DNA of 64,000 nucleotides from NCBI GenBank assembly GCA_030674185.1, contig JAPXFY010000023.1, positions 14,814,686-14,878,685 of the forward strand. Reading direction: 5' to 3'. The stretch is from Monoplex corrugatus (Eukaryota > Mollusca > Gastropoda > Littorinimorpha > Ranellidae). Every line of letters begins with the position of its first letter. The first letter of the stretch is position 1. The position numbers were made by a program, and so were the translations under genes. The notes beneath the pieces were generated by a model. The model did not search any database, had not been told where the DNA came from, and saw nothing but the letters and a program-made list of their open reading frames with translations. This document shows positions 25,776-59,740 of this stretch, piece by piece.

Positions 25776-25845
25776 TGTTTCATGATTCAAAAATTGCGAA
25801 AGACTTTGGTTGTGGTAGGAGTAAAGGAACAGCTATTTAAAAGAA

Positions 25846-27393
25846 ATGGCAGCAAAGTCAACTCTATCCTTGGCGGACAGGATGAAACATCACCCTTTCA
25901 CAATTTCTACAGATGGAAGTAATGATAAAGGTGGTTCCAAGTTATTTCCCCTGATTGTAAGGACTGTCCATCCTGACACAAAGGAGGTGCGATCAGAAGC
26001 CATCTCTGTACCTTCTATCCAGGGCTCAGCTACAGGTGTGAAAATCTTCGGCCTCATCGAAGCAGAAATGGATGCTCACAAGATTCCATGGGATAACTGT
26101 CTGGCCTTAGGATGTGATAATGCCAATGTCATGGTGGGAAATGATACTGGAGTGTATGGATGCATGCTGAAGAAGCACAAACAGTTGTTCCTGTCTGGAT
26201 GTGTGTGTCACTTGATTCACATTGCTGCAGAAAAAGGTGCAGAATGTCTCCCATTCAACATCAGTCAGGTCTTAGTGGATGTCTACTACTACCTAAACAA
26301 GAGCAGTAAAAGGCAAGCAGCTCTCAAGTGCCATCAGCTGTTGCATGAGATTGCAGAAACCAAAATGCTAAAACATGTGTCCACAAGGTGGTTAAGTATT
26401 GGGAGATGTCTACCTCGGCTCATCGAATCGTTTGATGCATTGCACGACTTCTTCAAAGAGGAAGAAAGGATAGCCACCAACACCACAAAGAAAAAAGCAG
26501 AAGCACTCAAGGACATTTTCGTCTCTCGAACAAACAAGCTCTATGCCAAGTTCTTACTGCATGCAATCAGTCCCTTTGAGAAAATCAACAGTGAACTTCA
26601 ATCAGATCAGCCTTTGATACCAGTGCTGAAGAACAAACTGGAGAAATTTCTTCGAGATCTGTTCATCCACTTTGTTAAACCATCAGCCATGTTATACAAG
26701 GGTGTGCTTGATGTGGATTTTCTGTCCAAGCCCAACATCAAGGTCAGGCAAGATCTGATCATTGGAGATACTGCTCGAGACTTTGTTGGACATCCAACTG
26801 AGAACAAACTGAAATCTACCAGGATTGAAGAGTTCTACACAAATGTTGTGAAGTTCTACCAAGCCAGCTGCAGCTACTTGAAGAAGAAGCTTCCAATCTC
26901 TGATCCTGTCCTAAAACATGCAGAAGTTGCCAACCCAGCCAAGCAACTGGACAGCACTTTTGGGAATGTGGAGTACTTTTTGAAACGGTTTCCAAAGATG
27001 GTTGGACCTGCTGTTTCCACAACAGATGTACAGATGGAGTTTGCAAACTATCAGTGCACTGATATTGGCTCATGTCTTCAGGAGAGAATGGACGAGACCT
27101 GGAAGAAAGTGGGTGAGCTTCAAGAGGATGGGAAAGTAATGTTTCCTCATTTGCCCATGGTCATGCTCTACATCCTCACTATCCCCCATTCTTCTGCACA
27201 TTGCGAAAGGATTTTTTCTGTTGTGCGGAAAAACAGGACAGACTTCAGAGGCAACATGTCAGATGATACTCTTGAGGCTCTTGTTGTCTGCAAATCAAGA
27301 CCTGGATGTGCTCTTGAGAGGAATCACAACAAAGAAGACCTCAAGGATTACAAAAGGTGCTACTACAGGAGTCTTCAGCCAGCAAAGAAATAA
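25846..27393 (+). pseudogene. hAT transposase catalytic and dimerisation region
   Basis: A 515-residue frame. It shows the RNase-H-like start HPFTISTDGSNDKGGSKLFP (first catalytic Asp in TDGS), the second acidic motif ALGCDNANVMVGNDTGVYGC (CDNA), HVSTRWLSIGRCLPRL (the conserved T-R-W block) and the C-terminal hATC dimerisation motif TIPHSSAHCERIFSVVRKNR with FRGNMSDDTLEALV. Such a domain order is specific to hAT elements related to ZMYM/ZBED-like host genes. The first 180 or so residues lie in other frames upstream, so the open frame is not a complete enzyme. A programmed or spliced product is unlikely because no intron signals fit between 25765 and 25846. Confidence 0.85.
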
Positions 27394-30912: not shown

Positions 30913-31239
30913 ACTGTAGAGTGACAGCACCAACTTTTTTATGTAAACCTGCGTATATGCTTGAGTGTTAGTTTGGGGGAAAGTGTTTGCGTGTCACAAG
31001 AACATTACTTAGCACATTGACAGCATGAATAGTTTTACCTGAATAGTTTTACCTAACCGGCGTGTGTGCTCCAGTTCATGTTTGAGAGAGAGAGAGTGTA
31101 TGTGTCTTATGACAAGACAGAGTTGTTTATTGTGAGAGAATGTGTATATTTTCTGGCAAGAATGACTGCGTATTTGTTTTGTAGGTCTGCAATGCCCTGA
31201 CAGCAGCAGGTAAAGACAGTTTGAGATAAAAGGGTCACA

Positions 31240-32112
31240 TGCCATTGTGAGTGTAGAGATAAAATGGATCACTCACCATTGTGAGTGTAGAGATAAAAGG
31301 ATCACTCACCATTGTGAGTGTAGAGATAAAATGATCACTCACCATTGTGAGTGTAGAGATAAAATGGTCACTCGCCATTGTGAGTGTAGAGATAAAAAGG
31401 TCACTTCCATTGTGAGTGTAGAGATAAAATGATCACTCACCATTGTGAGTGTAGAGATAAAAGGATCACTTCCATTGTGAGTGTAGAGATAAAATGGATC
31501 ACTTCCATTGTGATGTAGAGATAAAATGGTCACTACCATTGTAGTGTAGAGATAAAAGGATCACTTGCCATTGTGAGTGTAGAGATAAAAGGATCACTCA
31601 CCATTGAGTGTAGAGATAAAAATGATCACTCACTATTGTGAGTAGAGATAAAAGGATCACTTTGCCATTGTGAGTGTAGAGATAAAAGGATCACTACCAT
31701 ATGAGTGTAGAGATAAAAAGATCACTCACCATTGTGAGTGTAGAGATAAAAAGGTCACTCACCATTGTGAGTATAGAGATAAAAGGATCACTCACCATTG
31801 TGAGTGTAGAGATAAAAGGATCACTCACCATTGGAGTGTAGAGATAAAAGATCACTCACCATTGTGAGTAGAGATAAAATGATCACTGCCATTGTGAGTG
31901 TAGAGATAAAAGGATCACTCACCATTGAGTGTAGAGATAAAAGATCACCCCACCATTGTGAGTGTAGAGATAAAAGGATCACTCACCATTGTGTAGAGAT
32001 AGTTTGTAGAGATAAAAGGATCACTCACCATTGAGTGTAGAGATAAAAAGATCACTCACCATTGAGTGTAGAGATAAAAGATCATCACCATTGTGAGTGT
32101 AGAGATAAAAGC
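31240..32112 (+). repeat. 33-bp minisatellite downstream of PA2G4
   Basis: About 27 units of 28-34 bp: GATAAAAGGATCACTCACCA then TTGTGAGTGTAGA. Many units lose bases (CCATTGAGTG, GTGAGTAGAG), a noisier length profile than the 50-bp array. On the minus strand each unit reads CAATG|GTGAGTGATC. It probably lies in or just beyond the PA2G4 3' UTR. Confidence 0.96.
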
Positions 32113-35459: not shown

Positions 35460-36145
35460 CAGAGCAAATTTCTTGTTCTCAAGTTGCACAGTTTATGCAT
35501 GACATTTCTTCAACTGATACACACTTTGTGCATGAAGTTTTTCAAGAGAAACGCTTGATGTATGAATTTTTTCCACTTGAAACATTATTTATCAAGTTTT
35601 TTTTGTAAATGTTTTTGTATAAAAGTTCTTAAAAGTATGGCACAGTTTATAATTATGTTCCGTATTAAAAGTTCTTCAAGTAAAACTTGTGTGAAGGTTC
35701 TTAAACACACATTGTTTATGTGTGACAGTTCTTAACCCTTTGACTCCCGCACCCTGTCCACCAGCATCCTGCATTGGCAACCATGCTAGCAAAGCAACAA
35801 CTTAACCCTTTGACTCCCTCACCTGCAGGAAGCTGGTGGATAGGGTTAGGAAGTCAAAAGGTTAAATTTTTGCAGTTGGTGGATGGGGTGTGGGAGTCAA
35901 AGGGTTAAAGTGAAACAGTTTATGTATAAGGGTTCTTACAGTGAGACACACACTTTAGGTATGAAGGGTCTTATGATTTATGTATTGAGTTTCTTTGAAA
36001 TGAAACAGCTTATGCAATTGTTTGTAGAGAAACACAAATTCATGTATTCAGATTCTTCAAGCGAAATAAAATTTGAAGGTTCTTAAAGTGTAACACTATT
36101 TATTAAGGCTCTATAAGTGAAACACAGTTTATGTGTTAAGTTTTT
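35460..36145 (+). repeat. Degenerate ~40-45-bp repeat
   Basis: Loose units around GTTTATGTATGAAGGTTCTT and AAGTGAAACACA, about fourteen copies, interrupted by the MITE at 35732-35908. Too degenerate to fix an exact unit. Confidence 0.6.
35732..35908. mobile_element. piggyBac-type foldback MITE within the repeat
   Basis: A clean TTAA-to-TTAA element (TTAACCCTTTGACTCCCGCA ... GAGTCAAAGGGTTAA) inserted in the degenerate 40-bp repeat. Confidence 0.82.
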
Positions 36146-36307
36146 TAAACACACACCCCAGCCCACACACATTAGGAAAAGAAAGAAATACTGCAAATGT
36201 TCCACTTCACACACACATTAGCTTAAACAATTAGCTGCTAATGATGACAAATTCCACCTGATCTGATAGACACCACAGTTCAACACATCTAACTGCCAAT
36301 GAAGACT

Positions 36308-36500
36308 TTAAACCCTTTGCCACCTGCACTCTATCTACCAACTGCAAAAACTTAACCCTTTGACTCCCTCACCCTATCCACCAGCTTCCTGTAGGAAGCT
36401 GGTGGATAGGGTGAGGGAGTCACAGGGTTAAGTTTTTGCTCTTCCAGCATGGTTGACAAAGAAGGATGCTGTTGGACAGGCTGCAGGAGTCAAGGGTTAA
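36308..36500. mobile_element. piggyBac-type foldback MITE
   Basis: TTAAACCCTTTGCCACCTGC ... GAGTCAAGGGTTAA with the internal stem CCACCAGCTTCCTGTAGGAAGCTGGTGG. Same family as the neighbouring copies. Confidence 0.8.
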
Positions 36501-36504
36501 TACT

Positions 36505-37135
36505 GGACGTAGGAACATTTACGATTTCCTAGCCTATCAATGTTTCCTTCACCTCCCCTCTTCTTCCCAGGCGAAAAAAATTGAACACATGAAACAAAAA
36601 CGTGACAAAAAATGCATTTAAATCAGAACTATCAAGTTATCAAGAATGTGTGAAACAATTATAATACTTAAATCCTAATCAGAGCAGTTTATGAAACAAT
36701 TGTAAAACTTCAACTCAATAAAAAAAAAAGTAAAAGAAAAAATTGTAACTCGTGAAAGACTGAAACTTATAAAAACTTGATGCAAAGATACATGAAACCG
36801 ATAAGAAATATTTCTCAATAATAACACCAACAGTAACAGCAACACTATTGTTAGCAAGATAACTTCATTTCCCCAGTATGTAATCTGGACAGTAATTTCC
36901 ATGCACAGTAACGAATTAGAAAAAGAAACGGACACAGAATGGGTGGAGTATAACATATGCAAGGTGGACTGTGATTTCTAAGAACATCAATGAATTAGAA
37001 AATGATTGAAACAGACAGAATTAATGGGCGGAGTAATATACATGAAAGGTGAACAGAACGTTTGAAAATAATTTAAACAGAATGGATGTTGGTTGATAGC
37101 TAGAACTTCACATCTTGGTTAACATTTCACTGGTT
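36505..37135. other. Sequence downstream of the peroxidase gene
   Basis: A-rich sequence with a near-repeat (TGGACAGTAATTTCCATGCA / GGTGGACTGTGATTTCTAAG). No coding evidence. A polyadenylation signal for the minus-strand peroxidase would be expected here, but I cannot single one out. Confidence 0.4.
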
Positions 37136-37139
37136 AACT

Positions 37140-37945
37140 TAAGGAACGGACAGACGAGAGAATGGTGCACACAGACTTATGTGACACTATCGACAATCTT
37201 AAAGAGATTGTGAGGAAGTTAGCAAATGAATAACTAAATGACCGACGTAGACATGAAAACGATGCATGCTTTCATGCTGAGGAGGTTTGTCAAATGAGCA
37301 AACAGCTGTGACATGAAAATGCTGTCATTATGAGGAATCTTGAAAGGGTAAAAAGACGAAAATGTTGCTGACTTAAATGTTGAGAAAGTTTACCAAACGA
37401 ACAAACAACTAAGAAATGAGGATGCAGCCAACATGCTTGTCACTATGAGGAATCTTGAAAGGGTTATAAGACAAGAAAACGTTGCAGGCTTATATGTTCA
37501 GGAAGTTTGTCAAATGAACAAACCAACAACTAAGACATGAAGATGCTGGCAACATACTTGTCATCATGAAGAATCTTGAACGTGTTATAAGACACGAAAA
37601 TGTTGCAGGCTTATATGTTCAGGAAGTCTGTCAAATGAACAAATACAACTAAGACATGAAGATGCTGGCAACATACTTGTTATCATGAAGAATCTTGAAC
37701 GTGTTATAAGACACGAAAATGTTGCAGGCTTATATGTTCAGGAAGTCTGTCAAATGAACAAATACAACTAAGACACGAAGATGAGGGCAACATACTCGTC
37801 ATTATGAGGAATCTTGAAAGGGTTATAAGACAAGAAAACGTTGCAGACTTATACAATTAGGAAGTTTGTCAAACGAACAAACACACAAACAAGACATGAA
37901 GTTGCTGCCAACATACTCGTCATTATGATGAATCTTGAATGGGTG
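37140..37945 (-). repeat. ~120-bp array derived from peroxidase exon F
   Basis: Six to seven units of about 105-122 bp. On the minus strand each contains TTCAAGATTCTTCATGATAA, CAAGTATGTTGCCAGCATCT, TCATGTCTTA and GACAGACTTCCTGAACATATA. The first 55 bases match the coding end of exon F (CATTCAAGATTCATCATAAT, GACGAGTATGTTGGCAGCAA). The units therefore repeat coding sequence plus what follows it, mostly with stop codons (..FMS-stop). Units nearest exon F are most like it. Confidence 0.88.
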
Positions 37946-38022
37946 CAGCGGCACCTGCTCCAGTCCCACATTACGACAGATGATGCCAGAGTATGATGTC
38001 TGTTTGATGCTCTGCACTTGGG
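37823..38022 (-). CDS. Haem peroxidase exon F (last recognisable)
   Basis: After the acceptor TGTGTTTCAG this exon reads AQVQSIKQTSYSGIICRNVG then LEQVPLHPFKIHHNDEYVGS. It follows AAFTH of exon E to give FTHAQVQSIKQTS.S.IICRN, the conserved FT..Q...I+..S....ICDN block near the end of the animal peroxidase domain (phase 1 junction). The usual ICDN is ICRN here. Downstream of ..NDEYVGSNFMS the sequence departs from the family and passes into repeat-derived sequence until the stop at 37823. The family's CxxIPxxDL..W end is missing. The exon may be spliced earlier or the C-terminus may have been remodelled by the array. Confidence 0.75.
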
Positions 38023-38425
38023 CTGAAACACACAGCATTAAAACAATCTGATTCCATTCAGTGCTTTGATAAATGTGTGTTATCAACACACCCAGCATTA
38101 AATCAGTCTGACTCTTTTCAGTGCTTTGTTGACATTGATAGTGTACTATCAACTTTGGGTACTGATTACAGTCCAATTGATTATGATACAGCACAATATG
38201 TTCTGACATTGGTCATGACAATAGCGTGTTACCCACAGGAGACATGGGTATTTGTACATGTATACACCGACGTGTCAAAAACTGTAAAGCTGGTATCTTT
38301 ATCAACTTTTCAGGGACTTGAACAACAACAGCCAGAGTTTTGTATGGGCAAACACTGCACCAACTACCAAGCGAAAACGGGCATTCATGCAAGCAGCTTT
38401 CACAATTCATAATACTTATGATGCA
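38023..38425. other. Peroxidase intron, unclassified part
   Basis: A short duplication (CACAGCATTAAAACAATCTG against CCCAGCATTAAATCAGTCTG, then TTCAGTGCTTTG) occurs at 38031 and 38093. No coding evidence. Confidence 0.5.
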
Positions 38426-38570
38426 TGAGAGGGTGTGAGATGTACTTGCAGCGACAGGAGATACATTTGTGTGGAGGGCCATGGTCGCCAAAGCCATGCA
38501 GCAGGGCAGGGCAGGGCAGGGGGCATATGATGATGATGATGATGATGATGATGATAATGATGACTCATGC
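38425..38570 (+). mobile_element. LINE 3'-end fragment with (GAT)n tail
   Basis: GAGATGTACTTGCAGCGACA GGAG... then ATGGTCGCCAAAGCCATGCAGCAGGG in two pieces, a (GGGCA)n slip and ATGATGATGATG. Same LINE end as at 7070, 46620 and 47420. Confidence 0.75.
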
Positions 38571-38639
38571 TATCAAGTGCTCTTCTTCTCATATGCTCTC
38601 TGTTCTCTTGGGTTTTCAACAAGTCAGGAGAGTAGTTCT

Positions 38640-39165
38640 GTGAATCCCTGCTCACTGTGTGTTACCAGGAAACGAGACAGTAGATCGGCTAGCAAAAATA
38701 AGAGCCAGGAAAAACCAACCAGACAACAGCTTCAGTTGCATTGAGTAGAGTAGCATCATTAGATAAATCCTTTATGCCACAGACAGAAAGGGATGACAAT
38801 CACCTGTCCGAAGAACAGTAAGTGACCTTGATCAGGCTTCATACCGGGTCACAACTGTCTGACCTTCATATGAACCGCAAGTTCAGACTGACACCTTCAC
38901 CCAGAGGTCCAGACAGTTGAAGGCATTAACGGCAGTGATGTCGCTTGTATCAAGTGGAGGGACAGGAGACAAGGCAGACTACAACTCCTCTGACCGCCAA
39001 TATCTGATGGCAGTTGGCAGGAACCGAATGAAAACGGCCACAAGGATCAGCAGATGTGGTCTGGCCAAGTATACAGTGAGAGAAAGAAGAAGACAACCTA
39101 GCTGATATCTGGCGGTCAGTTCAAGACTGCAAACTGCTTAGAAAACAGCCAAGAGTGGAGCAGCT
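38640..39165 (+). pseudogene. RNase H fragment of a non-LTR element
   Basis: In the frame starting near 38643 the sequence reads IPAHCVLPGNETVDRLAKIR, the RNase H end motif (W.P.H.G..GNE..D.LA) of Jockey/I-type LINEs. Later frames show a ..TVEG...DV.C... tail with several frame changes. Confidence 0.7.
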
Positions 39166-39720
39166 GCAGTCTCAAGGACGTTGATCAGATCCCCCCCCCC
39201 CCCCCCCCCCCCAGCAACCTGTAGCTGTCGCAGTCCTGAAGAATACGTCTTGCTATCTGATCAACTTCTCAGGAGCACTGAAGAGATGGCACCAGTTGGA
39301 AGCGCTTGTTCACGTTGTGGCTCAGTCTGTTGAACCTAGTCTGCAGTCGGAGGATAATGACTTGCTTTTGCTGGGACAGCTGATGGTAACTGTCATGTAC
39401 GTGTAGCTGGGGTGCTCTGAACAGACTTGGTGATGGTTTTATGATGCTGACTCTGTTGTTTTTCTGTTCATGCTCTGCTCCCAGCTCCACCATTTCTCTG
39501 CTTCTTCATTTCCCTTGGATACCACAGTGTGAGGGTATCCACTGGAGCGCCTTTCTGTTGCGGCCGATGCTTTGCAATGTTTCTCGTAGATGCAGCAGTT
39601 TGCTTGTGGTGGTCGCTATCAGGACTGACATGGCATCCATGGGGAAGTATAGAGTCTTCCAAACCAGGCGTAAATTCAGCATCGTGATTAAGCACACTAT
39701 TTCAGACCCGGTGTAAAGTT
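39165..39720 (-). pseudogene. RNase H fragment of a non-LTR element, opposite strand
   Basis: The minus strand reads FPMDAMSVLIATTTSKLLHL then ALQWIPSHCGIQGK. The WIPSHCGI.G motif is the RNase H C-terminal block. It is frameshifted after that. A poly-C run lies at 39189-39212. The fragment is head-to-head with the one at 38640, suggesting an inverted pair. Confidence 0.7.
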
Positions 39721-40737
39721 AGCGTAATATATAACCTATTTCAAATCTAGTGTAAAATCAGCATTACATGTAAATTTAAAGTTGAGCAAGAAAACATACA
39801 TGGCATCTTCAATCGTTATCTCACTGGGTATAAAGTTAGCAGTATGATTACATAACTTATTTAAAAGCAAACACTAGACATACATGATTTCTACAATGAT
39901 TATCTCACCTGGGGTAAAACAATAAATGTACATGACACATACACTGATTATCTCACCTGGAATAAAACAATAAACATACATGACACATACACTGATTATC
40001 TCACCTGGAGTAAAACAATAAACATACATGACACATACACTGATTATCTCACCTGAAGTAAAACAGTAAACATACATGACACATACAATGATTATCTCAC
40101 CTGGAGTAAAACAGTAAACATACATGACACATACAATGATTATCTTACCTGAAGTAAAACAGTAAACATACATGACACATACAATGATTATCTCACCTGG
40201 AGTAAAACAATAAACATACATGACATATACAATGATTATCTCATCTGAAGTAAAACAATATAAACATACATGAAATATACAATAATTATCTCACCTGAAG
40301 TAAAACAATAAACATACATACATGACACACTGATTATCTCACCTGGAATAAAACAATAAACATACATGACACACTGATTATCTCACTTGGAGTAAAACAA
40401 TAAACATGCATGACATATACAATGATTATCTCACCTGGAGTAAAACAATAAACATACACGACAACTACAAGAGTTATCTCACTTGGTGTTAATAAATCTA
40501 CACGACATACGCAATGGTTATCTACCTGGTGTAAAACAACATCATGACATATACAATGGTTATCTCACCTGTTGATAAGTAAAAAAAATCAAACAAACAA
40601 ACGAAAAACAAACAAAAACAGGACATGACATCTACAATGGTTTTCTCACATGTTGTAAAGTAAAAACAACAACAAAAAACAAAAAAACCAACCAAACAAA
40701 CAAAAATTTGACATGACATCTACAATGGTCATCTCAC
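39660..40737 (-). repeat. ~50-bp array derived from the exon E donor
   Basis: About 18 units. On the minus strand a typical unit reads TTTTACTCCAG|GTGAGATAAT then CATTGTATATGTCATGTATG. The exon E end reads TTTACACATG|GTGAGATGAC CATTGTAGATGTCATGTC. The oldest, most diverged units (39660-39840) also keep more exon: GATGCTGAATTTACGCCTGG against the exon's GATGCTGCCTTTACACATGG. Units therefore span the exon/intron boundary and each carries a near-consensus 5' splice site. Units of 45-55 bp in the centre are the most uniform. Confidence 0.93.
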
Positions 40738-40903
40738 CATGTGTAAAGGCAGCATCGGAATCTTGTAAATCAAAGAAGAGTCGGTCACCTTCACGCAGGT
40801 GTTTGAACTGTTTACCAATGAGGTAGGCAAAGGTTGGCCCCACCACCCCCTCCACTGGTTCCTCGCTCATCCACCCACAAACAGGTCAATGTCATCCAGA
40901 GAC
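40738..40903 (-). CDS. Haem peroxidase exon E
   Basis: After the acceptor TGTGACAG the exon reads SLDDIDLFVGG, then MSEEPVEGVVGPTFAYLIGK, QFKHLREGDRLFFDLQDSDA and AFTH, ending ACATG|GTGAGA in phase 1. This is the VDDIDLF.GG..E.P..G..VGPTF..I...QF..LR.GDRF block of animal haem peroxidases (C-terminal part of the domain). Between VGG and MSEEP the frame slips by one base (GGTGG|ATGAGC), so the exon is not open from end to end as written. Both borders have been amplified into tandem arrays. Alternatively the VGG part is not used and splicing starts elsewhere in the array. A diverged SVEDIDLFV copy lies at 43836-43870. Confidence 0.85.
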
Positions 40904-43870
40904 CTGTCACACAAACACAAACAGGTCTATGTCATTCAGAGACCTGTCACACACACAAACAGGTCTATGTCATCCAGAGACCTGCACACACACACACAAA
41001 TAGGTCTATGTCATCCAGAGACCTGTCACACACACATATAAACAGGTCTATGTCATCCAGAGACCTGTCACACACACACAAACAAGTCTATGTCATCCAG
41101 AGACCTGTCACACACACACAAACAGGTCTATGTCATCCAGAGACCTGTCACACACACAAACAGGTCTATGTCACCCAGAGACCTGTCACACACACAAAAT
41201 AGGTCTATGTCATCCAGAGACCTGTCACACACATAAACAGGTCTATGTCATCCCGAGACCTGTCACACACACAAACAGGTCTATGTCACCCAGAGACCTG
41301 TTACACACAAACACAAACAGGTCTATGTCATCCAGAGACCTGTCACACACACAAACAGGTCTATGTCATCCAGAGACCTGTCACACACACAAACAAGTCT
41401 ATGTCATCCAGAGACCTGTCACACACACACAAACAGGTCTATGTCATCCAGAGACCTGTCACACAACACACAAACAGGTCTATGTCATCCCGAGACCTGT
41501 CACACACACACAAACAAGTCTATGTCATCCAGAGACCTGTCACACAAAACACAAACAGGTCTATGTCATCCAGAGACCTGTCACACAAACACAAACAAGT
41601 CTATGTCATCCAGAGACCTGTCACACACACACAAACAAGTCTATGTCATCCAGAGACCTGTCACACACAAAAAATCTAGTCTCAAAACCTCACACACAAA
41701 CAGGTCTATGTCATCCAGAGACCTGTCACACACACACAAACAGTCTATGTCATCCAGAGACCTGTCACACACACACAAACAAGTCTATGTCATCCAGAGA
41801 CCTGTCACACACACACAAACAGGTCTATGTCATCCAGATACCTGTCACACACACACAAACAAGTCTATGTCATCCAGAGACCTGTCACACACACAAACAA
41901 GTCTATGTCATCCAGAGACCTGTCACACACACACAAACAGGTCTATGTCATCCAGAGACCTGTCACACACACACAAACAGGTCTATGTCATCCAGAGACC
42001 TGTCACACACACACAAACAAGTCTATGTCATCCAGAGACCTGTCACACACACAAACAGGTCTATGTCATCCACAGACCTGTTAAACACACAAACAGGTCT
42101 ATGTCATCCACAGACCTGTCACACACAAAACAGGTCTTTGTCATCCAGAGACCTGTCACACACAAACACAAACAGGTCTATGTCATCCAGAGACCTGTCA
42201 CACACAAACACAAACAGGTCTATGTCATCCAGAGACCTGTCACACACAAACACAAACAGGTCTATGTCATTCAGAGACCAGTCACACACACACAAACAGG
42301 TCTATGTCATCCAGAGACCTGTCACACCCAAACACAAACAGGTCTATGTCGCCCAGAGACCTGTCACACACACAAACAGGTCTATGTCATCCAGAGACCT
42401 GTCACACACACACAAACAGGTCTATGTCATCCAGAGACCTGTCACACACACAAAACAGGTCTATGTCATCAAGAGACCTGTCACACACACACAAACAGGT
42501 CTATGTCATCCAGAGACCTGTCACACACACACAAACAGGTCTATGTCATCCAGAGACCTGCCACACACACACAAACAGGTCTACGTCATCCAGAGACCTG
42601 TCACACACACACAAACAGGTCTATGTCATCCAGAGACCTGTCACACACACAAACAGGTCAATGTCATCCAGAGACCTGCCACACACACACAAATAGGTCT
42701 ATGTCATCCAGAGACCTGTCACACACACACAGGTCTATGTCATCCCGAGACCTGTCACACAAACAGGTCTATGTCACCCAGAGACCTGTTACAAACACAA
42801 ACAGGTCTATGTCATCCAGAGACCTGTCACACACAAACAGGTCTATGTCATCCAGAGACCTGTCACACACACACAAACAGGTCTATGTCACCCAGAGACC
42901 TGTCACACATACAAACAGGTCTATGTCATCCAGAGACCTGTCACACACACAAACAGGTCTATGTCATCCAGAGACCTGTCACACATACAAACAAACAGGT
43001 CTACGTCATCCAGAGACCTGTCACACACACAAACAGGTCTATGTCATCCAGAGACCTGTCACACACACAAACAGGTCTATGTCATCCAGAGACCTGTCAC
43101 ACACACAAACAGGTCTACGTCATCCAGAGACCTGTCACACACACAAACAGGTCTATGTCATCCAGAGACCTGTCACACACACACAAACAGGTCTATGTCA
43201 TCCAGAGACCTGTCACACACACACACAAACAGGTCTATGTCATCCACAGACCTGTCACACACACATAAACAGGTCTATGTCATCCAGAGACCTGTCACAC
43301 ACACACAAACAGGTCTATGTCATCCACAGACCTGTCACACACACAAACAGGTCTATGTCATCCAGAGACCTGTCACACATACAAACAAACAGGTCTATGT
43401 CATCCACAGACCTGTTACACACACACAAACAGGTCTATGTCATCCAGAGACCTGTCACACACACACAAACAGGTCTATGTCATCCAGAGACCTGTCACAC
43501 ACACACAAACAGGTCTATGTCATCCAGAGACCTGTCACACACACACAAACAGGTCTATGTCACCCAGAGACCTGTTACACACAAACACAAACAGGTCTAT
43601 GTCATCCAGAGACCTGACACACACACACAAACAGGTCTATGTCACCCAGAGACCTGTTACACACAAACACAAACAGGTCTATGTCATCCACAGACCTGTC
43701 ACACACACATAAACAGGTCTATGTCATCCAGAGACCTGTCACACACACACATAAACAGGTCTATGTCATCCAGAGACCTGCCACACACACACAAACAGGT
43801 CTATGTCATCCAGAGACCTGTCACACACACACAAACAGGTCGATGTCTTCTACAGACTGGGCCTGTGCAA
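40885..43870 (-). repeat. ~40-bp array derived from the exon E start and its 3' splice site
   Basis: About 74 units. On the minus strand: TGTGTGTGTGTGACAG|GTCT then CTGGATGACATAGACCTGTT. This is exon E's own start, CAG|GTCTCTGGATGACATTGACCTGTT, with its TG-rich acceptor. Length varies mainly in the (TG)n part, between about 34 and 46 bp. Changes in the exon-like part are few (ATAGAC for ATTGAC, TGTGGATG for TCTGGATG). The outermost right unit is different: CACAG GCCCAGTCTGTAGAAGACATC, encoding SVEDIDLFV, closer to the family consensus. Very long open frames on the plus strand (to 840 codons) are artefacts of the 40-bp period. Confidence 0.97.
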
Positions 43871-43875
43871 CACAC
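43836..43875 (-). pseudogene. Diverged copy of exon E start (SVEDIDLFV)
   Basis: At the upstream edge of the array the minus strand reads TTGCACAGGCCCAGTCTGTA then GAAGACATCGACCTGTTTGT: AQSVEDIDLFV. VEDIDLF is the common family form, so this may be the original coding segment, with the array having grown between it and the rest of exon E. Another weaker copy (CAGGTCTGTGGAAGGACACT) is at 43937-43963. Confidence 0.6.
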
Positions 43876-44026
43876 ATGCACGTAGGTTCACATTCCTGGC
43901 TGTATATATACACAAACACAGAAACAAACACAGACAGGTCAGTGTCCTTCCACAGACCTGTCAAACACACGTACATAGTTGTCTGTATATATTTACACAT
44001 ATAAACACACATGAAGACAAACAAAC

Positions 44027-44138
44027 CCCACTTCCGAGTTTGTTCAAGAGGGGTTTCATCCCACTGGGAAAATTTCATAAGCACACCTCCAAAATCTTCC
44101 ATAATTACACGGCAAATTCCCCGAACATATGCAAAACC
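44027..44138 (-). CDS. Possible peroxidase exon between D and E
   Basis: After GAACTGAACAG the minus strand is open and reads GFAYVRGICRVIMEDFGGVL then MKFSQWDETPLEQTRKW, with a possible donor GGG|GTTTGT. The Y..R..C......F..L arrangement resembles the segment that normally follows RGRDHGLP in animal peroxidases, and the order along the gene fits. However, the acceptor seems to be made by the end of a short SINE-like repeat (44139-44205), and the match is weak. Treat as a candidate. Confidence 0.3.
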
Positions 44139-44388
44139 CTGTTCAGTTCAGTTCATATTGCTTACAGCCCAGCCGACTACTACAGTCATATCAGGGCTAA
44201 CACCACGTCAAAACCCTATGCATCGGCAAGGTCGTCAAATGAGGGATATTTTTGGTAGGGGTAAGTGAGAGAGAACAGGACCTGTTTGACACTAAGCTGA
44301 CATCACCAGAAAGGAAATAGGGCCTACTGTCTTAACCCAGTTGATAGACAAAATCCTAAACAAGTGTGACTGCCCGCGTTCAAGCAAT

Positions 44389-44761
44389 CAGGAACCAGAA
44401 ATAAAAAACACGAAAGAAGAATAAGAACGCGTATTTAATACAAGACAAGACAGGCACAAATTTTCGGCCGACTGGCCTTTGTCAAGCGTAAGATCACAAA
44501 CAAACAAACACCAGATACAAAAATTAGAAGAAAAAGACTGAAATTTCCCTGTTGCTTGGTCCAGCGTGAGAAAAGGAATGGACCGAGCAGCAAGGAAGTT
44601 TCAGTCTTTTTCTCCTAATTTTTGTATCTGGTATTTGTTTGTTTGTTTGTGATGTTACACTTTACAAGGCCAGTTGGCCGAAAATTTGCACCTGTCTTGT
44701 CTTGTTGTATTAAATACGCGTTCTTATTCTTCTTTCGTGTTTTTTTTCCCCTAGTTCCAGT
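44389..44761. mobile_element. Foldback element (family F), copy 2
   Basis: A near-continuous palindrome: arms of about 175 bp at 44389-44565 and 44587-44761 around a ~20-bp loop. Key pairs: ACGCGTATTTAATACAAGAC with TTGTATTAAATACGCGT, TTTTCGGCCGACTGGCC with GGCCAGTTGGCCGAAAA, and ACCAGATACAAAAATTAG with CTAATTTTTGTATCTGGT. The outer flank GTGTGACTGCCCGCGTTCAA (44366-44385) is shared with the other copies. Confidence 0.88.
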
Positions 44762-44994
44762 TGATAGAAAGCTGAGGTTTCGTGCATTGACTGGGGAGGG
44801 GGGGGGGGGGGGGTTCTGTTATGTGAGACGAGTTTATACAGAATAGCTAGTTATTTTTTTTATTCATTTACTTGACATATGTGTTCCCTTTTTTAAAGAT
44901 AAGATACACAGGTACATTATGTCATCTACATGTAACCAAGATTGTTCTAATGACAGGCTGATAAAATACCAGTATAAAAAATAGACTAGGTAAA

Positions 44995-45160
44995 ACATAG
45001 TCTAGGTAGGGCCTCAGGACCTGGCCAGCCCAGGATTTATGTGCAGGCTTAAGGTTTGTACCATGATCACCACACACATGGCTCCTGTGACGTTAGTGCA
45101 TATGTTATTCGTTCCGAGCGCGGAGACATCGTCTTGAAAAAACTGAAACTGAAACTGACA
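44995..45160 (+). mobile_element. SINE tail fragment
   Basis: GTAGGGCCTCAGGACCTGGC ... GCGCGGAGACATCGTCTTGA AAAAACTGAAACTG matches the 3' part of the SINE at 11660-12255. Confidence 0.7.
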
Positions 45161-45239
45161 TCACCAGAATGACAGGAGCATTGATATGAGCAGCAATCCG
45201 GCCAGTTTTTATGTTGCTGATTCATATTAACTCCAGGCA

Positions 45240-45785
45240 TCAGGTTATTTTTGTTTAAAGCCCAGCCGACTGTGTAGAGCCATATCAGGGCTATAGCCTG
45301 TTTCAAACATACACAATACTTCAACAGGACAAAAAAAGTTAAAGAAAATGAAGTACACATATCAATGCATTCGCCCACATAATCTAAGGAGATGCCCTTG
45401 GCGCTGACCACTCCAATTTATCACACAGGGGATTTAAAAAACAAACCTGACTACAATTTAAACAACAATGGTACTAAAGCATACATAAAAACAGGCATAA
45501 ATTACCTAAAATTGCATCCGCATCTGTCATTTCCCTAAAGCCAAAAATGCACTTTATATATGTACCCAGTTATCAATCATAAGAGAACGTACATAAGACT
45601 TTATCAAACACATGCAGGTGAATGGACCAGCAAGGCAGATAATGACAGGAAGAAATGACAGAAAGCAAAGGAGGAAGAAAGAAACAAAGACAGTGACAGA
45701 AAAGAGGAAATTTCTGGCACAAAATTTCCAGAAGATGGGGATACTATTTATACCGAAAGAGCCCCGGCATTCCACGGGGGGTGAG
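45240..45785 (-). mobile_element. Dispersed repeat R copy
   Basis: From the end GTTTAAAGCCCAGCCGACTG (45255) through CATATCAATGCATTCGCCCA, CAGGCATAAATTACCTAAAA (45503-45522) and TCCAGAAGATGGGGATACTA to GAAAGAGCCCCGGCATTCCA. Same order as 29430-29998, on the opposite strand and unexpanded. Confidence 0.8.
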
Positions 45786-45904
45786 GCATTAGGTATCGAG
45801 TCCATGGCTCCATACCAACAGCCATCCAGAATACACTTAACCCGCGACAGTAGCGTCATCAGCCTCTCGCTTCAAATTCATATAAGTATTCACATTTTTT
45901 TTAA

Positions 45905-46230
45905 CAAGACTTCAAAAAGGCAAGAAGGCTAATTGGTCTTCAAGGGGTAGGATCTGGAAAATCAACCTATCTACGCGATGTTTTACACCAAGCAGCCGGC
46001 AATGCCCTGCTCTTGACGATTTTCAACTGCCGTGGGATTTTTTGCGTACGCAACCCTAAGGCACACGGGTCCGACTCGTTTTTCGTCCCCTTCCGAAGGA
46101 CTAGACGTTCAGTTCGATTTTCCGGTCAAACTGAGGAGAAAAGTTGAGGCTGTACGGAGAGTGAACCCTGGAACCTCGAGTTTAGTTATTGGCAGGTGAA
46201 CGTCTGAACCATTCTGCCACTCTTCTCTCT
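45905..46230 (-). mobile_element. tRNA-derived SINE, promoter intact
   Basis: Minus-strand head GAGTGGCAGAATGGTTCAGA (A-box-like TGGCAGAATGG, 46201-46219) and GAGGTTCCAGGGTTCACTC (B-box-like, 46157-46176) about 40 bases apart, as in tRNA genes and Pol III SINEs. The body matches 11690-11960. It is followed directly by sequence shared with the SINE/R junction at 11960. Confidence 0.8.
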
Positions 46231-46342
46231 GCCCCCATTCAAACACATACTAACATGTTCAGAGCAGTAACACAGGACGGCAGCACCAGACGTGGCCCCA
46301 AGAATTCTGTAGCCTGGTCACCAAACTCCTTCAAGGCATGTT

Positions 46343-46536
46343 TCAGGAAATCCAGGAATGGGGGAAGCCATGGTCGCGCCCCCTCTGTATGGAGCGTGCC
46401 GGGAGGTCGGTGCTGACGTTGGGAAAACCCACTCCCCAAAACAGAAAGTCTGTTACTCCCTCCGCAAAACTGGCGTCCACGTTTTGACATGGGCTGGTCA
46501 TCTGGGACAGAAAGAGGTCCGCCACAATGGGATGAC
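46343..46536 (-). CDS. Haem peroxidase exon D
   Basis: After GTGTTTTCACAG the exon reads GHPIVADLFLSQMTSPCQNV, DASFAEGVTDFLFWGVGFPN and VSTDLPARSIQRGRDHGFP. IQRGRDHG is the most conserved signature of animal haem peroxidases, preceded by the expected V...LT..LF block. Exon C joins it in phase 1 as ..HLFHQG. After HGFP a run of five C (46360-46364, G on plus) is followed by a stop (46343-46345). One more base would give HGFPPFLDFLKHALKEFGDQ in an open frame to about 46239. A -1 indel, in the gene or in the assembly, is likely. The conserved Asn of GLP.YN, which contacts the proximal His in characterised enzymes, is not seen in either frame. Confidence 0.85.
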
Positions 46537-50620: not shown

Positions 50621-50787
50621 CTTGATGGAACAGGTGATCAGGGCGGAAGAAGAGATGCTTGATCTCTTGCACGGAGCTGTCGTTGTGAGCCATGAGCTGC
50701 AGTCTGTTGTTGATCTCTGAGTGGCCAAACCGAAAGGCCGCCGTCTGGAATGAGTTAATGATGCTGGGGTTGAGGCTGCTGTTGTAA
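50621..50787 (-). CDS. Haem peroxidase exon C (proximal histidine)
   Basis: After TGGTGTTTCAG the exon reads (S)YNSSLNPSIINSFQTAAFRF, GHSEINNRLQLMAHN and EIKHLFFRPDHLFHQ, ending CAAG|GTAGGC in phase 1. Y.....NP.I.N.F.TAAFRFGHS is the conserved block that supplies the proximal haem-ligand histidine (RFGH). It is followed by the usual FF.PD.L. The junction with exon B is in phase 2 (AG|T). The exon is open throughout. Confidence 0.93.
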
Positions 50788-52889: not shown

Positions 52890-54345
52890 AGATAGTATTC
52901 CTACCTGCTATCACCCCTCTGTATTCCTACCCGCTATCCGCCCCTCTGTATTCCTACCTGCTATCACCCCTCTGTATTCCTACCTGCTATCACCCCTCTG
53001 TATTCCTACCTGTTATCACCCCTCTGTATTCCTACCCGCTATCACCCCTCTGTATTCCTACCTGCTATCACCCCTCTGTATTCCTACCTGCTATCGCCCC
53101 TCTGTATTCCTACCTGTTATCACCCCTCTGTATTCCTACCTGCTATCACCCCTCTGTATTCCTACCTGCTATCACCCCTCTGTATTCCTACCCGTTATCA
53201 CCCCTCTGTATTCCTACCTGTTATCACCCCTCTGTATTCCTACCTGTTATCACCCCTCTGTATTCCTACCCGCTATCACCCCTCTGTATTCCTACCTGTT
53301 ATCACCCCTCTGTATTCCTACCTGTTATCACCCCTCTGTATTCCTACCCGCTATCACCCCTCTGTATTCCTACCTGTTATCACCCCTCTGTATTCCTACC
53401 TGTTATCACCCCTCTGTATTCCTACCTGCTATCACCCCTCTGTATTCCTACCCGTTATCACCCCTCTGTATTCCTACCCGTTATCACCCCTCTGTATTCC
53501 TACCTGTTATCGCCCCTCTGTATTCCTACCTGCCATCGCCCTCTGTATTCCTACTCGCTATCCGCCCCTCTGTATTCCTACCTGCTATCACCCCTCTGTA
53601 TTCCTACCTGCTATCGCCCCTCTGTATTCCTACTCGCTATCCGCCCCTCTATATTCCTACCTGCAATCACCCCTCTGTATTCCTACCTGCTATCACCCCT
53701 CTGTATTCCTACTCGCTATCCGCCCCTCTGTATTCCTACCTGCAATCACCCCTCTGTATTCCTACCTGCTATCGCCCCTCTGTATTCCTACCTGCTATCC
53801 ACCCCTCTGTATTCCTACCTGCTATCGCCCCTCTGTATTCCTACCCGCTATCACCCCTCTGTATTCCTACCTGCTATCCACCCCTCTGTATTCCTACCTG
53901 CTATCACACCTCTGTATTCCTACCTGCTATCACCCCTCTGTATTCCTACCTGCTATCCACCCCTCTGTATTCCTACCTGCTATCACCCCTCTGTATTCCT
54001 ACCTGTTATCACCCCTCTGTATTCCTACCTGCTATCACCCCTCTGTATTCCTACCTGCTATCGCCCCTCTGTATTCCTACCTGCTATCACCCCTCTGTAT
54101 TCCTACCTGTTATCACCCCTCTGTATTCCTACCTGCTATCACCCCTCTGTATTCCTACCCGCTATCACCCCTCTGTATTCCTACCTGCTATCACCCCTCT
54201 GTATTCCTACCTGTTATCACCCCTCTGTATTCCTACCCGCTATTGCCCCTCTGTATTCCTACCCGCTATTGCCCCTCTGTATTCCTACCCGCTATCATCC
54301 CTCTGTATTCCTACCTGCTATCACCCCTCTGTATTCCTACCTGTT
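52890..54345 (+). repeat. 26-bp minisatellite, left part (~56 copies)
   Basis: Units of 26 bp, rarely 25 or 27: GTATTCCTACCTGCTATCAC CCCTCT, with CTGCT/CCGCT/CTGTT and CACC/CGCC/CCACC variants. The same array resumes at 58380-58700 beyond the inserted LINE. The long open frame (PLYSYLLSPLCIPTCYHPSV repeats) is a repeat artefact. On the left it grows out of the diverged exon B copy (GATGAGATAGTATTCCTACC). Confidence 0.96.
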
Positions 54346-54652
54346 ATAATAATTACAATAATTACAATATTTATATAGCGCAAAATCTTGATAAAATCAA
54401 ATCTAAGCGCTGAATCAGACACACACGCAAGCACGCACGCACGCACGCACGCACACACACGCACGCACACACACACACACACACATACACACACACACAC
54501 ACGCATGGCTATAAATGGGGAGAAAGAATAAAAGCAATAAAAGCAAGAATAAAAGCAATGGAAAATTATAGAGAGCATAGCATATACAATTATATATTAT
54601 AACCATGTGATTCCCTCCGAGCGGAGACAGGCTTCAGAGGGGGGTTAGGATT

Positions 54653-56200
54653 TTATGCGGAGGAGAAAAGGTGAGTTTTGAGAGCGGACTTGAAGGAGAC
54701 AAAAGTAGGTTGCTGACGGACTGAGAGAGGAAGTTTGTTCCAGGAGAGTGGACCAGAAACAGAGAAGGCTCGTGGACCATAGGTATTGAGCTTAGTGCGT
54801 GGAAAGCGAAAAGTCAGAGGATCGGAGGCAGAGCGGAGGGTACGTGAGGGAACATAGATCTCAAGTAGGCTTGACAGGTAATCGGGGGCTGCGTTATTGA
54901 GGCTTTTGTAGCACATGGTGTCTAGTTTGTACTGTATGCGCTTTGATACAGGGAGCCAGTGAAGTTGTGCCAGGAGAGGAGATATGTGATCAGCTTTTTT
55001 CTTTTTGAGTACAAGGCGTACAGCATTGTTTTGAATGCGCTGTAGGATGTGAATGGTGGAGGCAGGAAGACCAGACAGGAGTGAATTGCAATAGTCAATG
55101 CGAGACATTATGAAGGAGAGAACGAGTTTTGCAGTTGTTTCGACAGAGAGATACTTCCTGATCAGCCTTATACGATGGAGATGATAGTAGCAGGATCTGG
55201 CAGTTTGAGAAACAAAGTTGTTCATGGAGAGGGTAGAGTCAATGCAGACACCAAGGTTTTTAGCTGAATCAGAAATTGGGACTGATGTGTTACATAATGG
55301 GAGAGAAAGAGGAGGCAGCTGAGAAAGTTTCTGACGGGTGCCAATGAGGATAGCTTCTGTTTTGTCGTCATTAAGCTGAAGTCTATTGTGTGTCATCCAG
55401 TTCTTAATGTCCGAGTAACACTCAGTGGTGCGAGTCAACAGGCGTTGTATATTATCAGGTGAGTCACTGTCTTGAAGTTGGGTGTCATCAGCATAGAAGT
55501 GGTGTTTTATAGAATGGGAGTTGATGATGGTGGACAGGGGGGAGGTGTAAAGAGTGAAAAGAACAGGGCCAAGGACAGATCCTTGTGGAACACCACAGGT
55601 CAGGTATGCAGGTTGAGAGTAAGTGCCATTGATGAGAACGGTTTGTTTTCTGTTGGATAGGTATGAAGTGAACCAAGACAGAGCAATGTCAGAGATGCCA
55701 AAAGTATGATGAAGTCTAGAAAGGAGAATACCATGATCAATGGTATCAAAGGCTGCAGACAGATCAAGGAGTGTGAGGAGAGAGACTTTGCCAGTATCAG
55801 TTGCAAGGAGGAGATTGTTGAGAATGTGTAGTAGGGCAGTTTCAGTGCTATGGCACTGGCGGTAGGCTGACTGGAAAGGATTGAGGAGATTGTTGGCAGA
55901 CAGGTGAGAGTTCAGCTGGTTGAGGACGACTTTTTCAAGGAGTTTTGACAAGAAAAAGAGATTAGAGATAGGCCGGTAATTTTTCAGTTCATTTGGATCT
56001 AAATTGTGTTTCTTGAGGAGAGGGTGAACAATGGCAGACTTGAAAGAATCAGGGACAGTTCCAGTTTGAAGAGAAGTGTTGATGATGTCAGTGATGAATG
56101 GGAGGAGAGTAGGGAGACAGTCGGCGTAGAGAGAACCTGGAAGAGGATCTAGTTCGCAGGTTTTGAACGACATGGATCTGATTGTGTTTGAGAATTTCTT
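54653..56200 (-). CDS. LINE reverse transcriptase
   Basis: Encodes the reverse transcriptase that copies the element at its target site. In order, it shows NYRPISNLFFLSKLLEKVVL, PFQSAYRQCHSTETALLHIL, DLSAAFDTIDHGILLSRL, the motif GVPQGSVLGPVLFTLYTSPL, the catalytic box HHFYADDTQL (about 55480-55500), NRLQLNDDKTEAILIGT, SAKNLGVCIDSTLSM and a C-terminal [14 protein letters not shown] ... LKTHLFSSA-stop. All catalytic aspartates (SAAFD, YADD) are present. The open frame extends upstream to 56392, but homologous protein starts only near 56200, where it should join the endonuclease frame. The two frames are offset by one base there. Confidence 0.92.
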   Translation of the reverse strand, partial: KKFSNTIRSMSFKTCELDPLPGSLYADCLPTLLPFITDIINTSLQTGTVPDSFKSAIVHPLLKKHNLDPNELKNYRPISNLFFLSKLLEKVVLNQLNSHLSANNLLNPFQSAYRQCHSTETALLHILNNLLLATDTGKVSLLTLLDLSAAFDTIDHGILLSRLHHTFGISDIALSWFTSYLSNRKQTVLINGTYSQPAYLTCGVPQGSVLGPVLFTLYTSPLSTIINSHSIKHHFYADDTQLQDSDSPDNIQRLLTRTTECYSDIKNWMTHNRLQLNDDKTEAILIGTRQKLSQLPPLSLPLCNTSVPISDSAKNLGVCIDSTLSMNNFVSQTARSCYYHLHRIRLIRKYLSVETTAKLVLSFIMSRIDYCNSLLSGLPASTIHILQRIQNNAVRLVLKKKKADHISPLLAQLHWLPVSKRIQYKLDTMCYKSLNNAAPDYLSSLLEIYVPSRTLRSASDPLTFRFPRTKLNTYGPRAFSVSGPLSWNKLPLSVRQQPTFVSFKSALKTHLFSSA

Positions 56201-58115
56201 CTTGTGAGACTGGGGTAAAAGTAGTAAGAGGTGTGCCAGAGAAGGAAGGGTCAGGTGGGCATGGTTGACAGGGTGTCCTGTCAAGCCTGTCACGAAGAGT
56301 TTGTATTTTGGTGGTGAAATAGTTGGAGAATACAGATGGGAGTTCTTCATTTGTATGTTTTGTTGGGAGAGGTAAATCTTTTCGTGTGCCAAGGAGATGA
56401 TTCATGGTTGTAAAGAGTTCTTTTGAAGAAGAGGCATTCAGGATTTTGGTTTGGAAATAGCTTGTTTTTGCTGATGCAATGAGGGTGGATACTTTTGTTT
56501 TAGAGGCTTGGAAAAGTTGCCTGTGTACAGTGAGTTTGGATTTGCGCCAGCGGCGCTCTGCTCTGCGGCGGGCACGTTTTGCACAGGCGATCTCATGAGT
56601 GAGCCAGGGGGTAGGGGGGCGGTCAGGTAAAAGACGGGTTGTGGCTGGAGCATGAGTGTCCAGAAGATGGTGGAGAGTAGTATAGAATTCATCCGCAAGG
56701 TTATGTGACTTTTCAGAAAGGAGACGGGAGGCATCAGATGAAAATGTGGAGAGGTCGATAGATTTGAGATTGCGTCGAGTCACTGTGCGCATGGTACGGG
56801 AAGGAGGAGAAATGTCGAGAGAACAGAGAATTGCAGAGTGGTCAGATGGAAGGGCTGAAGTTAGACGGGTAGAAAGAACTAAGCAGTTGTCAGTAGCGGA
56901 ATTTTGGTGATCACGAGAAATGATCCAGTCAAGAATGTGACCTTTTTGATGGGTTGGTTCAGAAATGTGTTGAGTCATATTGTGATTGGACAGAGAGTTG
57001 ATGATATGTCTTGTGTCATAACGGTGAGTGTTGTCATAGTGGACATTGATGTCACCAAGAATGATGAGATTTCCAGGTAAGAGACAGTAGTAATCAAGAA
57101 GTTGATCAAAGTCAGAGAGAAACATGGATGTGGTGAGCTTGTTGGCAGAGCTAGGTGGAGGTCGATAGACACAGGAGAAGGTGATGGGGTGAGGGGTGGA
57201 TTGGAAGGATACTTCAACGTGCTCGAAAGAAGGATGGGAGAAAGGCAGAGACTGCGAGAAAGACAGGCGGGAATGGAGTGAGTCGTTGTAGAGGATGGCG
57301 ATACCACCACCTCGGGATGAGCGATGGAAAGAAGCAAGCCTGTAACCACTCGGAGTGAGACTCACATGTATAGGTTCATGACCAAGGGGGTTAAGCCATG
57401 TTTCGGTGATAAAAGCAATGTCAACATGCTCATCTGCGATAAAGTCAGCAATGACATCGGCTTTGCCATCAGTGCATGTTGACTGAGCGTTAAAAAGGCA
57501 TAGTTTTAGTTTATCACAATGCGGCGGCCTAGGTGGAGACGAAGGCAGCACCGACGGGACAGAAGACGAAGGAGACACCAGCGGGGCAGAAGACGAAGGC
57601 AGCAACGACGGGACAGAAGACGAAGGAGGCACCAGCGGGACAGAAGACAAAGGCAGCACCAGCGGGACAGAAGACGAGGGCAGCGCCGGCGGGACAGAAG
57701 ACGAAAGCGGCATCGGTGGGACAGAAGGTGAAGGCGGCACCGGCGGGACAGAAGACGAAGGCGAAGACGGCAGAGGAGGAGACGAAGTTTGCAGCAGCAA
57801 GATCGAGTGCAGGGGCAGTGGAGAAGACGAAGAAGCAGAAGAGTGGTGTCGGACTGGCACAGCAGGAGGCAGATTGTGCCAAAGTCGGTGGAGACGTCCA
57901 CCACGACAGGATCGCGCAGTGCGGGGCTTAGGACACAGCCCCAGTGTTCGTATGCGCTGGTAGACGCCTCCACCGAGGTAGCACTTGCTGTATTTAAAAA
58001 GTGTCAGTCCAATTTGTTTTATAAAAGAAGGGTCCATAATTGCGAGCCAGTCAGGAGAGCAAGATACTTGCAGAGAACACAAAGGTTTGGGAAAGCTGTA
58101 GCGTTGGGCGAACAC
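56195..58115 (-). CDS. LINE endonuclease region (frame offset from RT)
   Basis: From the first ATG of the frame (58115) or the later MDPSFIKQIGLTLFKYSKCY (58037) the product has a Ser/Pro/Val-rich linker made of ~9-residue repeats such as PSSSVPLVPPSSSVPSLLP (57530-57780). An APE-type endonuclease follows: KLCLFNAQSTCTDGKADVIA, IAFITETWLNPLGHE, SSRGGGIAILYNDSL, FSCVYRPPPS, LGDINVHYDN, HILDWIISRD and SDHSAILCSLD. ETWL, GDIN and SDH are the catalytic and metal-binding motifs. The frame then covers the linker HEIACAKRARRRAERRWRKS to TPVSQEEILK (about 56195). A one-base frame change separates it from the RT, so this copy is probably dead unless translation shifts. Confidence 0.9.
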
Positions 58116-58379
58116 AGTAGGCTAAAATGTAAACACAGTTCACAGATAAAATGTCCGACTTGAGCGGCTGAATTAAAATGATGAAAAGAGGTGTAAAAAC
58201 TTTGAAATCAGATTATCTGGTAAAATATTCAAAATTTAAAAAAAAAATTTACATCACCGTGTGTCGGGATTTAAAAGCAACAAACTGATACAAAATTCAA
58301 TGCATAAAATCAAATAGAACCACGATAAAATCACTGTAAAACACCACACACACTTTTGCTGCCTGCTGGCGCGACATCT

Positions 58380-59499: not shown

Positions 59500-59740
59500 C
59501 TCGCAGGCTCGTTCAAACGGAAGAACTTGATGACTTTCGGGCCCAGGATCAGAGGCAGGTACTCCTTATAGATGACGTTCTGTGTCTGAGCGATGAGCAG
59601 TGCACGTGCCTGTTGGTACAGCTGTTGGTCAGACCAGGTGGGGTGACGTGTGTGCAGGGCATCAGCCAGCCGGTTATGCTCCAGGTGAAACACCAGGTGT
59701 GTGGCTGTCAGACCCGGGAATACATTCAGCCGGTTGTCTC
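59500..59740 (-). CDS. Haem peroxidase exon B (catalytic Arg, EHNR)
   Basis: After TTTTCTGCCAACAG the exon reads (G)DNRLNVFPGLTATHLVFH, LEHNRLADALHTRHPTWSDQ, QLYQQARALLIAQTQNVIYK and EYLPLILGPKVIKFFRLNEP AR, ending GCGAG|GTATTG (phase 2). AGD.R..E.PGL...H....EHNR.A..L...+P.W.DE.+YQ.AR.I..A..Q...Y.E.LP..LG is the core of animal haem peroxidases. The Arg of GD-N-R is the distal catalytic arginine. The residue three places on, Glu in MPO-type enzymes (ester link to haem), is Val here, and the next is Phe. The exon is open from end to end. Part of it is duplicated downstream. Confidence 0.95.

Follow-up and report, generated by a model that had tools for sequence, protein, structure and literature searches.

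The stretch of DNA analysed here (the window, 64,000 nucleotides) is part of a 70-Mb contig (C23) in a genome of 3.0 Gb. On its minus strand runs an animal haem peroxidase gene, with exons A, B, C, E and F placed; the letters follow the exon E of an earlier note on this DNA. Exon A (59500..59740), part of the same gene as exon E, matches Pfam positions 211-291 (E 4.7e-24). Exon B (YNSSLNPSIINSFQTAAFRFGH...) lies at 50621..50787, and exon C (DLPARSIQRGRDHG...) at 46255..46536, starting at 46536 and with a provisional 3' end. Exon E, an animal haem peroxidase exon, occupies 40738..40903 (first base 40903, last base 40738) and ends in the donor CATG|GTGAGA; exon F (QVQSIKQTSYSGIICRNVGLEQVPLHPFKIHHND) occupies 37917..38022, with the donor GA|GTATGTTG placed by eye. 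The frame is broken twice: in exon C near 46362, inside a C run, and in exon E near 40870, and PF03098 (Pfam) matches the part of exon E downstream of this break (E 1.7e-9). The closest of the compared genes at the protein level is a paralog on another contig (C30), with 66% in exon A and 64% identity between the two exons F. A PDB search with a read-through 15-kb stretch gave no match.

Between exons C and E, immediately upstream of E, stands a minus-strand array (40904..43860) of 74 copies of (TG)n-ACAG|GTCTCTGGATGACATAGACC-TGTTTG, that is, of the exon E 3' splice site and exon start; past its distal end the unit core occurs a 75th time, as a degenerate outlier (43936..43960, minus strand). 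Tandem Repeats Finder (TRF) places the array at 40872-43847 (period 40, 75.6 copies, score 4743). Read on the gene strand, each unit consists of a UG-rich tract, ACAG and then GTCTCTGGATGACATAGACCTGTTTG, the acceptor and the start of exon E, and so carries ~25 of the first coding bases of that exon. Anchoring on a 20-nt exonic core (at most 6 errors) recovers 76 cores: the true exon start at 40903 and 75 upstream, the two distal ones of which (43857 and 43957) are degenerate. Neighbouring cores are 38, 40 or 42 nt apart in 63 of 75 intervals, i.e. they differ by TG steps; the remaining intervals measure 34-41 nt, save one of 65 and one of 100 at the degenerate distal edge. The AG is kept in 73/75 units. 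The earlier note's array of ~74 units of ~40 bp, built of the acceptor and first ~25 coding bases of exon E, is thus borne out at 75 copies on the minus strand.

The true acceptor (first exon base 40903) can be told from its copies by comparison with 18 paralogs. In all 14 that could be compared automatically through a DDIDLF-type motif, the codons of this motif are preceded, at exactly 7 nt, by an AG (two of the 14 have an additional AG closer to them); three of the 18 lack the motif, and one (L013), read by eye, agrees. The copies stand directly before the real site, as had been claimed. Within 10 kb of sequence (window 36001-46000), a 50-mer spanning the true acceptor recurs 74 times on the same strand, always upstream (-3066 to -62), and never on the opposite strand. 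The units are thus homologous to the true junction over the 50-mer and their similarity goes beyond the TG tract, which excludes the objection raised in advance by the earlier note, that the likeness might be limited to this tract.

The units are not uniform. At the third base of an Ile codon, the true exon has T (ATT) and 72 of the 76 cores have A, a synonymous difference; the unit at 42675 is the only one in the array with ATT. Other variants are blocked: GTCTGTGG units occur only at positions of at least 42077, and GACT-ending units only at 41104-42039, a pattern consistent with local rounds of expansion. Arrays of such size are difficult to assemble, the copy number given is that of one assembled haplotype, and exon E has a single copy in the assembly, so an assembly or read artefact that inflated or invented the unit number has to be weighed. 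The many variants grouped in blocks, and the independent arrays at other junctions (exon F of the C30 paralog, myosin exons; see below), make this highly improbable.

Two further arrays, both overlooked by the earlier note, bring the copied edges of the peroxidase gene to three. Downstream of exon E, a minus-strand array (39800..40659; TRF 39869-40571 and 40543-40738) repeats the 5' splice site of exon E 17 times (39824-40649). Its unit consists of ~10 bp of exonic sequence (TTTACACATG) plus intron, with spacings of 43-49 bp except for 88 and 81 next to the exon and 84 at the opposite end; GT is kept in 16/17 copies. The count depends on the test: 17 by fuzzy matching (at most 8 errors in 26 nt), 10 by a stricter junction test and 1 at the edge-copy threshold. 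At exon F, five copies of a 119-bp unit (37323..37916, minus strand; TRF 37323-37944, 119 bp x 5.2) include ~26 bp of the exon's 3' edge and its donor, with GT kept in 3/5; the edge-copy test likewise finds five same-strand copies. One exon is thus flanked by 75 near-copies of its acceptor and 17 of its donor.

The frame breaks in exons C and E mean that this gene copy may be inactive, or that the assembly is wrong. If it is a pseudogene, the array could have grown unchecked and has no splicing consequence, and an assembly-wide search found no second, possibly working, copy of exon E. Against this stand the dN/dS values relative to the C30 paralog, 0.20 in the exon A part (78 codons), 0.10 in the exon B part (28 codons) and 0.23 in the exon E part (36 codons), which, with dS near saturation, indicate past constraint and are still compatible with recent loss. 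One of the breaks falls in a C run, where assembly errors would be frequent, and arrays of the same kind occur at myosin exons whose coding parts are free of stops. A pseudogene is therefore a possible but minority reading.

The acceptor array is not shared by the peroxidase paralogs compared. In the 50-mer copy test, 14 of 15 paralogous acceptors have no same-strand copy and one (L014) has a single copy, so an array common to the paralogs was rejected; at the level of paralogs, this also answers the other objection foreseen by the earlier note, that relatives might carry the array where exon E is missing; single opposite-strand matches occur at L013 and L019, and the near-identical pairs L015/L016 and L025/L026 mean that the 15 are not all independent. 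The C30 paralog has no array at its exon E acceptor. At its exon F donor it carries an array of its own (52 bp, ~3.5 units), unrelated to those of the window and noticed by eye because its unit includes only ~5 coding bases. Separate arrays at exons E and F of the window gene and at exon F of the C30 paralog indicate that junction arrays arise repeatedly. Edge copies are found in 6/43 peroxidase exons (C30 exon A, L013, L014 and window exons A, E and F; counted without an opposite-strand control), and in three of these six (C30 A, L014 and window A) they are single. The exon E donor of L013 has three copies at 74-79%. Together with the exon E acceptor of L014 (copy at -148) and the myosin exon L091, it belongs to a set of old, diverged boundary copies of 72-79% identity, possibly the remains of earlier arrays.

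Boundary arrays also recur in an unrelated gene family. In a sample of 63 of 73 myosin exon matches, taken with short flanks, three exons have clear boundary arrays: an acceptor array of three identical 155-bp copies (L061, 155 bp x 3) and donor arrays of 49 bp x 5.9 (L094) and 52 bp x 7.2 (L076, counted on its TRF donor array with weak upstream matches disregarded). The automatic edge-copy test is positive on the same strand in 10/63 exons and on the opposite strand in 1/63 (L041). Six of the ten exons with same-strand edge copies (L056, L061, L071, L076, L091 and L094) were inspected by eye, the other four being L041, L049, L078 and L086. L071 and L056 were dropped as simple-sequence artefacts, and L091 has one weak edge copy. 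TRF arrays reach the match edge in 4/63 exons (L061, L067, L076 and L094), of which L067, with an overlap of 3 bp only, was not counted.

These cases stand against a background of abundant tandem repeats. The minisatellite share is 30.6% in the window and 17.5% in 22 loci (L011-L032, 187 kb). Around the 63 myosin matches, array coverage is 11-18% at 120-340 bp, 3-4% within the 20 bp nearest the match and 0.9% in the match itself, a depletion that may be overstated because it is measured from HMM match ends, which may stop short of the exon end, so that the drop may come partly from coding sequence. With the same caveat, the idea that arrays are targeted at junctions was rejected, since coverage is depleted near exon edges. 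Arrays at junctions seem to be the tolerated fringe of tandem duplication that proceeds at a very high rate.

Several other repeats and frames were seen. Two arrays of the window (52895-54347 and 58382-58703) have a common 26-bp unit. Near each is found a diverged version of exon A's 3' portion (52880-52815, and ~667 bp beyond exon A), as though the duplication had involved a longer segment. The array units at 31223-32111 and 18280-22906 contain minus-strand donor-like motifs (ATG|GTGAGTG, ACAG|GTGACT). An inverted repeat seen by eye at 44400-44750 is perhaps a small DNA element, and the long open frames at 25155-27393 and 54653-58121 presumably resemble a hAT-type transposase and a LINE reverse transcriptase. 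Outside the window, exon matches at C8:17733071 and C21:16973518-16978875 lie inside stop-free frames of 4262 and 1828 aa, lengths that perhaps result from neighbouring arrays without stop codons.

How the copied sites might behave in splicing can be judged from their features. The earlier note had proposed that the GTGTGTG of each unit could act as the donor of a tiny intron. This is weak: from TTT|GTGTG to the next AG is ~15 nt and a whole unit is ~40 nt, both under the usual sizes of animal introns; introns spanning several array units are possible. Straight read-through from a decoy acceptor meets a stop before the true exon in 75/75 cases (median 52 nt, maximum 157), so decoy use would for the most part be unproductive. 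Over the 30 nt preceding the AG, the pure TG run is longer than at the real site in 60/75 decoys and equal or shorter in 15/75. Each unit further contains a hairpin, ACAGGTCT...AGACCTGT: as DNA, a composed unit folds at -7.9 kcal/mol (z -3.5) and a native unit at -8.1 (z -1.9); as RNA, the hairpin lies over the AG, at -14.7 kcal/mol (z -2.4) in a decoy 48-mer and -13.5 (z -1.8) at the real site. In a 70-nt context the real acceptor folds no better than shuffles (z -0.8). By these sequence-based measures, the hairpin and the longer TG runs could weaken the decoys; the differences are small. No strong hairpin is present in three other boundary units (E-donor, F-donor and L094), and the hairpin was rejected as a general cause of boundary arrays.

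Such features invite a regulatory reading. A UG tract just before an acceptor can matter: in CFTR intron 8, (TG)m affects the inclusion of exon 9, although this is a microsatellite without copying of the acceptor, whereas the peroxidase units copy it. The UG-rich acceptors of the array might sometimes be used and yield early-stop transcripts, so that array length would tune output, with a UG-binding repressor of the TDP-43 type restraining the decoys. TDP-43 binds UG repeats, and literature excerpts describe its repression of cryptic exons. The AG retained in nearly all decoys, the stop after every one of them, the longer TG runs of most and the slightly stabler AG-covering hairpin speak in favour. 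The real site, however, is only slightly unlike the decoys: a fifth of them have TG runs no longer than its own, and its fold in context is no better than that of shuffled sequence. The near-absence of copies at the 15 paralogous acceptors means that this is not a conserved device, and arrays are depleted near exon edges. Length-dependent control by decoys is accordingly an unlikely explanation.

The array may also preserve some history. The unit at 43857, which translates as SVEDIDLF, differs from the C30 exon start by 2 edits, the present exon (SLDDIDLF) by 5; the distal copy at 43957, at 5 edits, is no nearer than most units. Across the array, distance to C30 drops distally (Spearman -0.34, p 0.003, n 75), also without the two distal units (-0.31, p 0.008); so does distance to L018 (-0.35, p 0.002), the trend for L014 being not clear (-0.18, p 0.11). 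Measured against the present exon, unit distances have no positional trend (-0.05, p 0.65). All these p values are indicative, since array units are not independent. The simplest reading of the trend would be that the distal units are older. The proximal units, with ATA where the exon has ATT, were not recently copied from the exon in its present form. One could go further and see in the array both a length-tunable brake, whose UG-flanked, hairpin-covered decoys divert some of the transcripts into products with stops so that unit number sets the peroxidase level, and a recorder, whose distal units store older exon edges from which conversion could rewrite the exon; we regard this combination as improbable.

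The earlier note knew of no standard element of this kind. A close precedent exists in lancelets, where excerpts of two reports describe mirages, tandem repeats of exon-intron boundaries at the 5' and 3' ends, in Adh3, globin and other genes (PMC3087553; PMC3902484). The cases named there are Adh3, the globins BflGb6 and BflGb9 and troponin C, with similar repeats in PGBD5, and regular splicing is reportedly undisturbed (PMC3087553; PMC3902484). As in the mirages so described, the peroxidase units span a boundary and hold both intron and exon of one junction; acceptor and donor boundaries are both affected (exon E acceptor and donor, exon F donor); and the splice signals are kept in many units (AG in the acceptor array, GT in the two donor arrays, in the proportions given above). 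As far as these excerpts go, lancelet mirages agree with the peroxidase arrays in each structural feature examined. Unit lengths in lancelets are 10-72 bp in Adh3 and 150-160 bp in globins according to the same excerpts (PMC3087553; PMC3902484), and the exon E array has 75 copies, compared with the 6 and 3 reported for two BflGb6 haplotypes. Lancelet mirages vary in length between alleles, even somatically. Their splicing, the excerpts indicate, has been checked, whereas the peroxidase array is known from its sequence. The present arrays differ further in that the host is a mollusc rather than a cephalochordate (a matter of host range and not of structure), that both ends of one exon and the next exon are affected, and that the acceptor unit has a hairpin. 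That the genome looks molluscan follows from PF14830, a haemocyanin domain of molluscs with 16 matches on two contigs; lancelet genomes are, besides, much smaller than 3.0 Gb. No mirages outside lancelets appear among the literature matches listed, which are open-licence papers represented mostly by title and the start of the abstract.

More distant parallels are known. In a potato RdRp gene, a tandem duplication likewise runs from an intron's 3' end into the beginning of the following exon, and this one duplication created a new intron (PMC4974935); the peroxidase gene, with its 75 copies, gives no evidence of one. In human duplicated genes, minisatellites, some of them at exon-intron boundaries, can alter exon/intron structure, and the variable internal tandem repeats average 30-bp units x 4, half of them in coding sequence (PMC2812944). 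A mollusc intron with a length-variable 27-bp minisatellite is described for abalone (intron 3 of a TSSK1-like gene, PMC6905558), in excerpts that mention no copying of a splice junction.

Taken together, the arrays are most probably boundary minisatellites of the mirage type: tolerated, neutral by-products of tandem duplication that are removed with the intron and have no selected function. This reading accords with a minisatellite content of 17-31% in the measured stretches that is yet thinner near exon edges. We infer that a tandem duplication first took in the 3' splice site together with the opening ~25 bases of exon E, probably via a TGTTTGTG/TG stretch that occurs in the exon (CTGTTTGTG) as well as ahead of the acceptor, and that the array then expanded by slippage or unequal exchange, perhaps assisted by the unit hairpin. 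The earlier suggestion that slippage in the TG tract captured the exon edge fits this route, given the unit ends (TG/TTTGTG tract) and the 2-nt steps. In an acceptor duplication the last copy would stay joined to the exon body, and in a donor duplication the first. One intact junction thus remains on the exon body, and the gene works if the exon-proximal copy is used: exon definition would pick the last acceptor and the first donor, and the remaining copies would go as intron. The donors speak against so simple a picture, since 15/17 decoy donors match CAGGTAAGTAT at more positions than the real donor does (mostly 7 vs 5 of 11), and simple site strength would predict mis-splicing.

An exon placed between copied acceptors and copied donors puts exon definition and the choice of AG to a natural test, in which array length is the dial. 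The arrays extend boundary minisatellites from lancelets to a mollusc and to two unrelated gene families, and may be raw material for new introns and exon edges. If the array does act as a brake, alleles that differ in unit number would express differing amounts of peroxidase.
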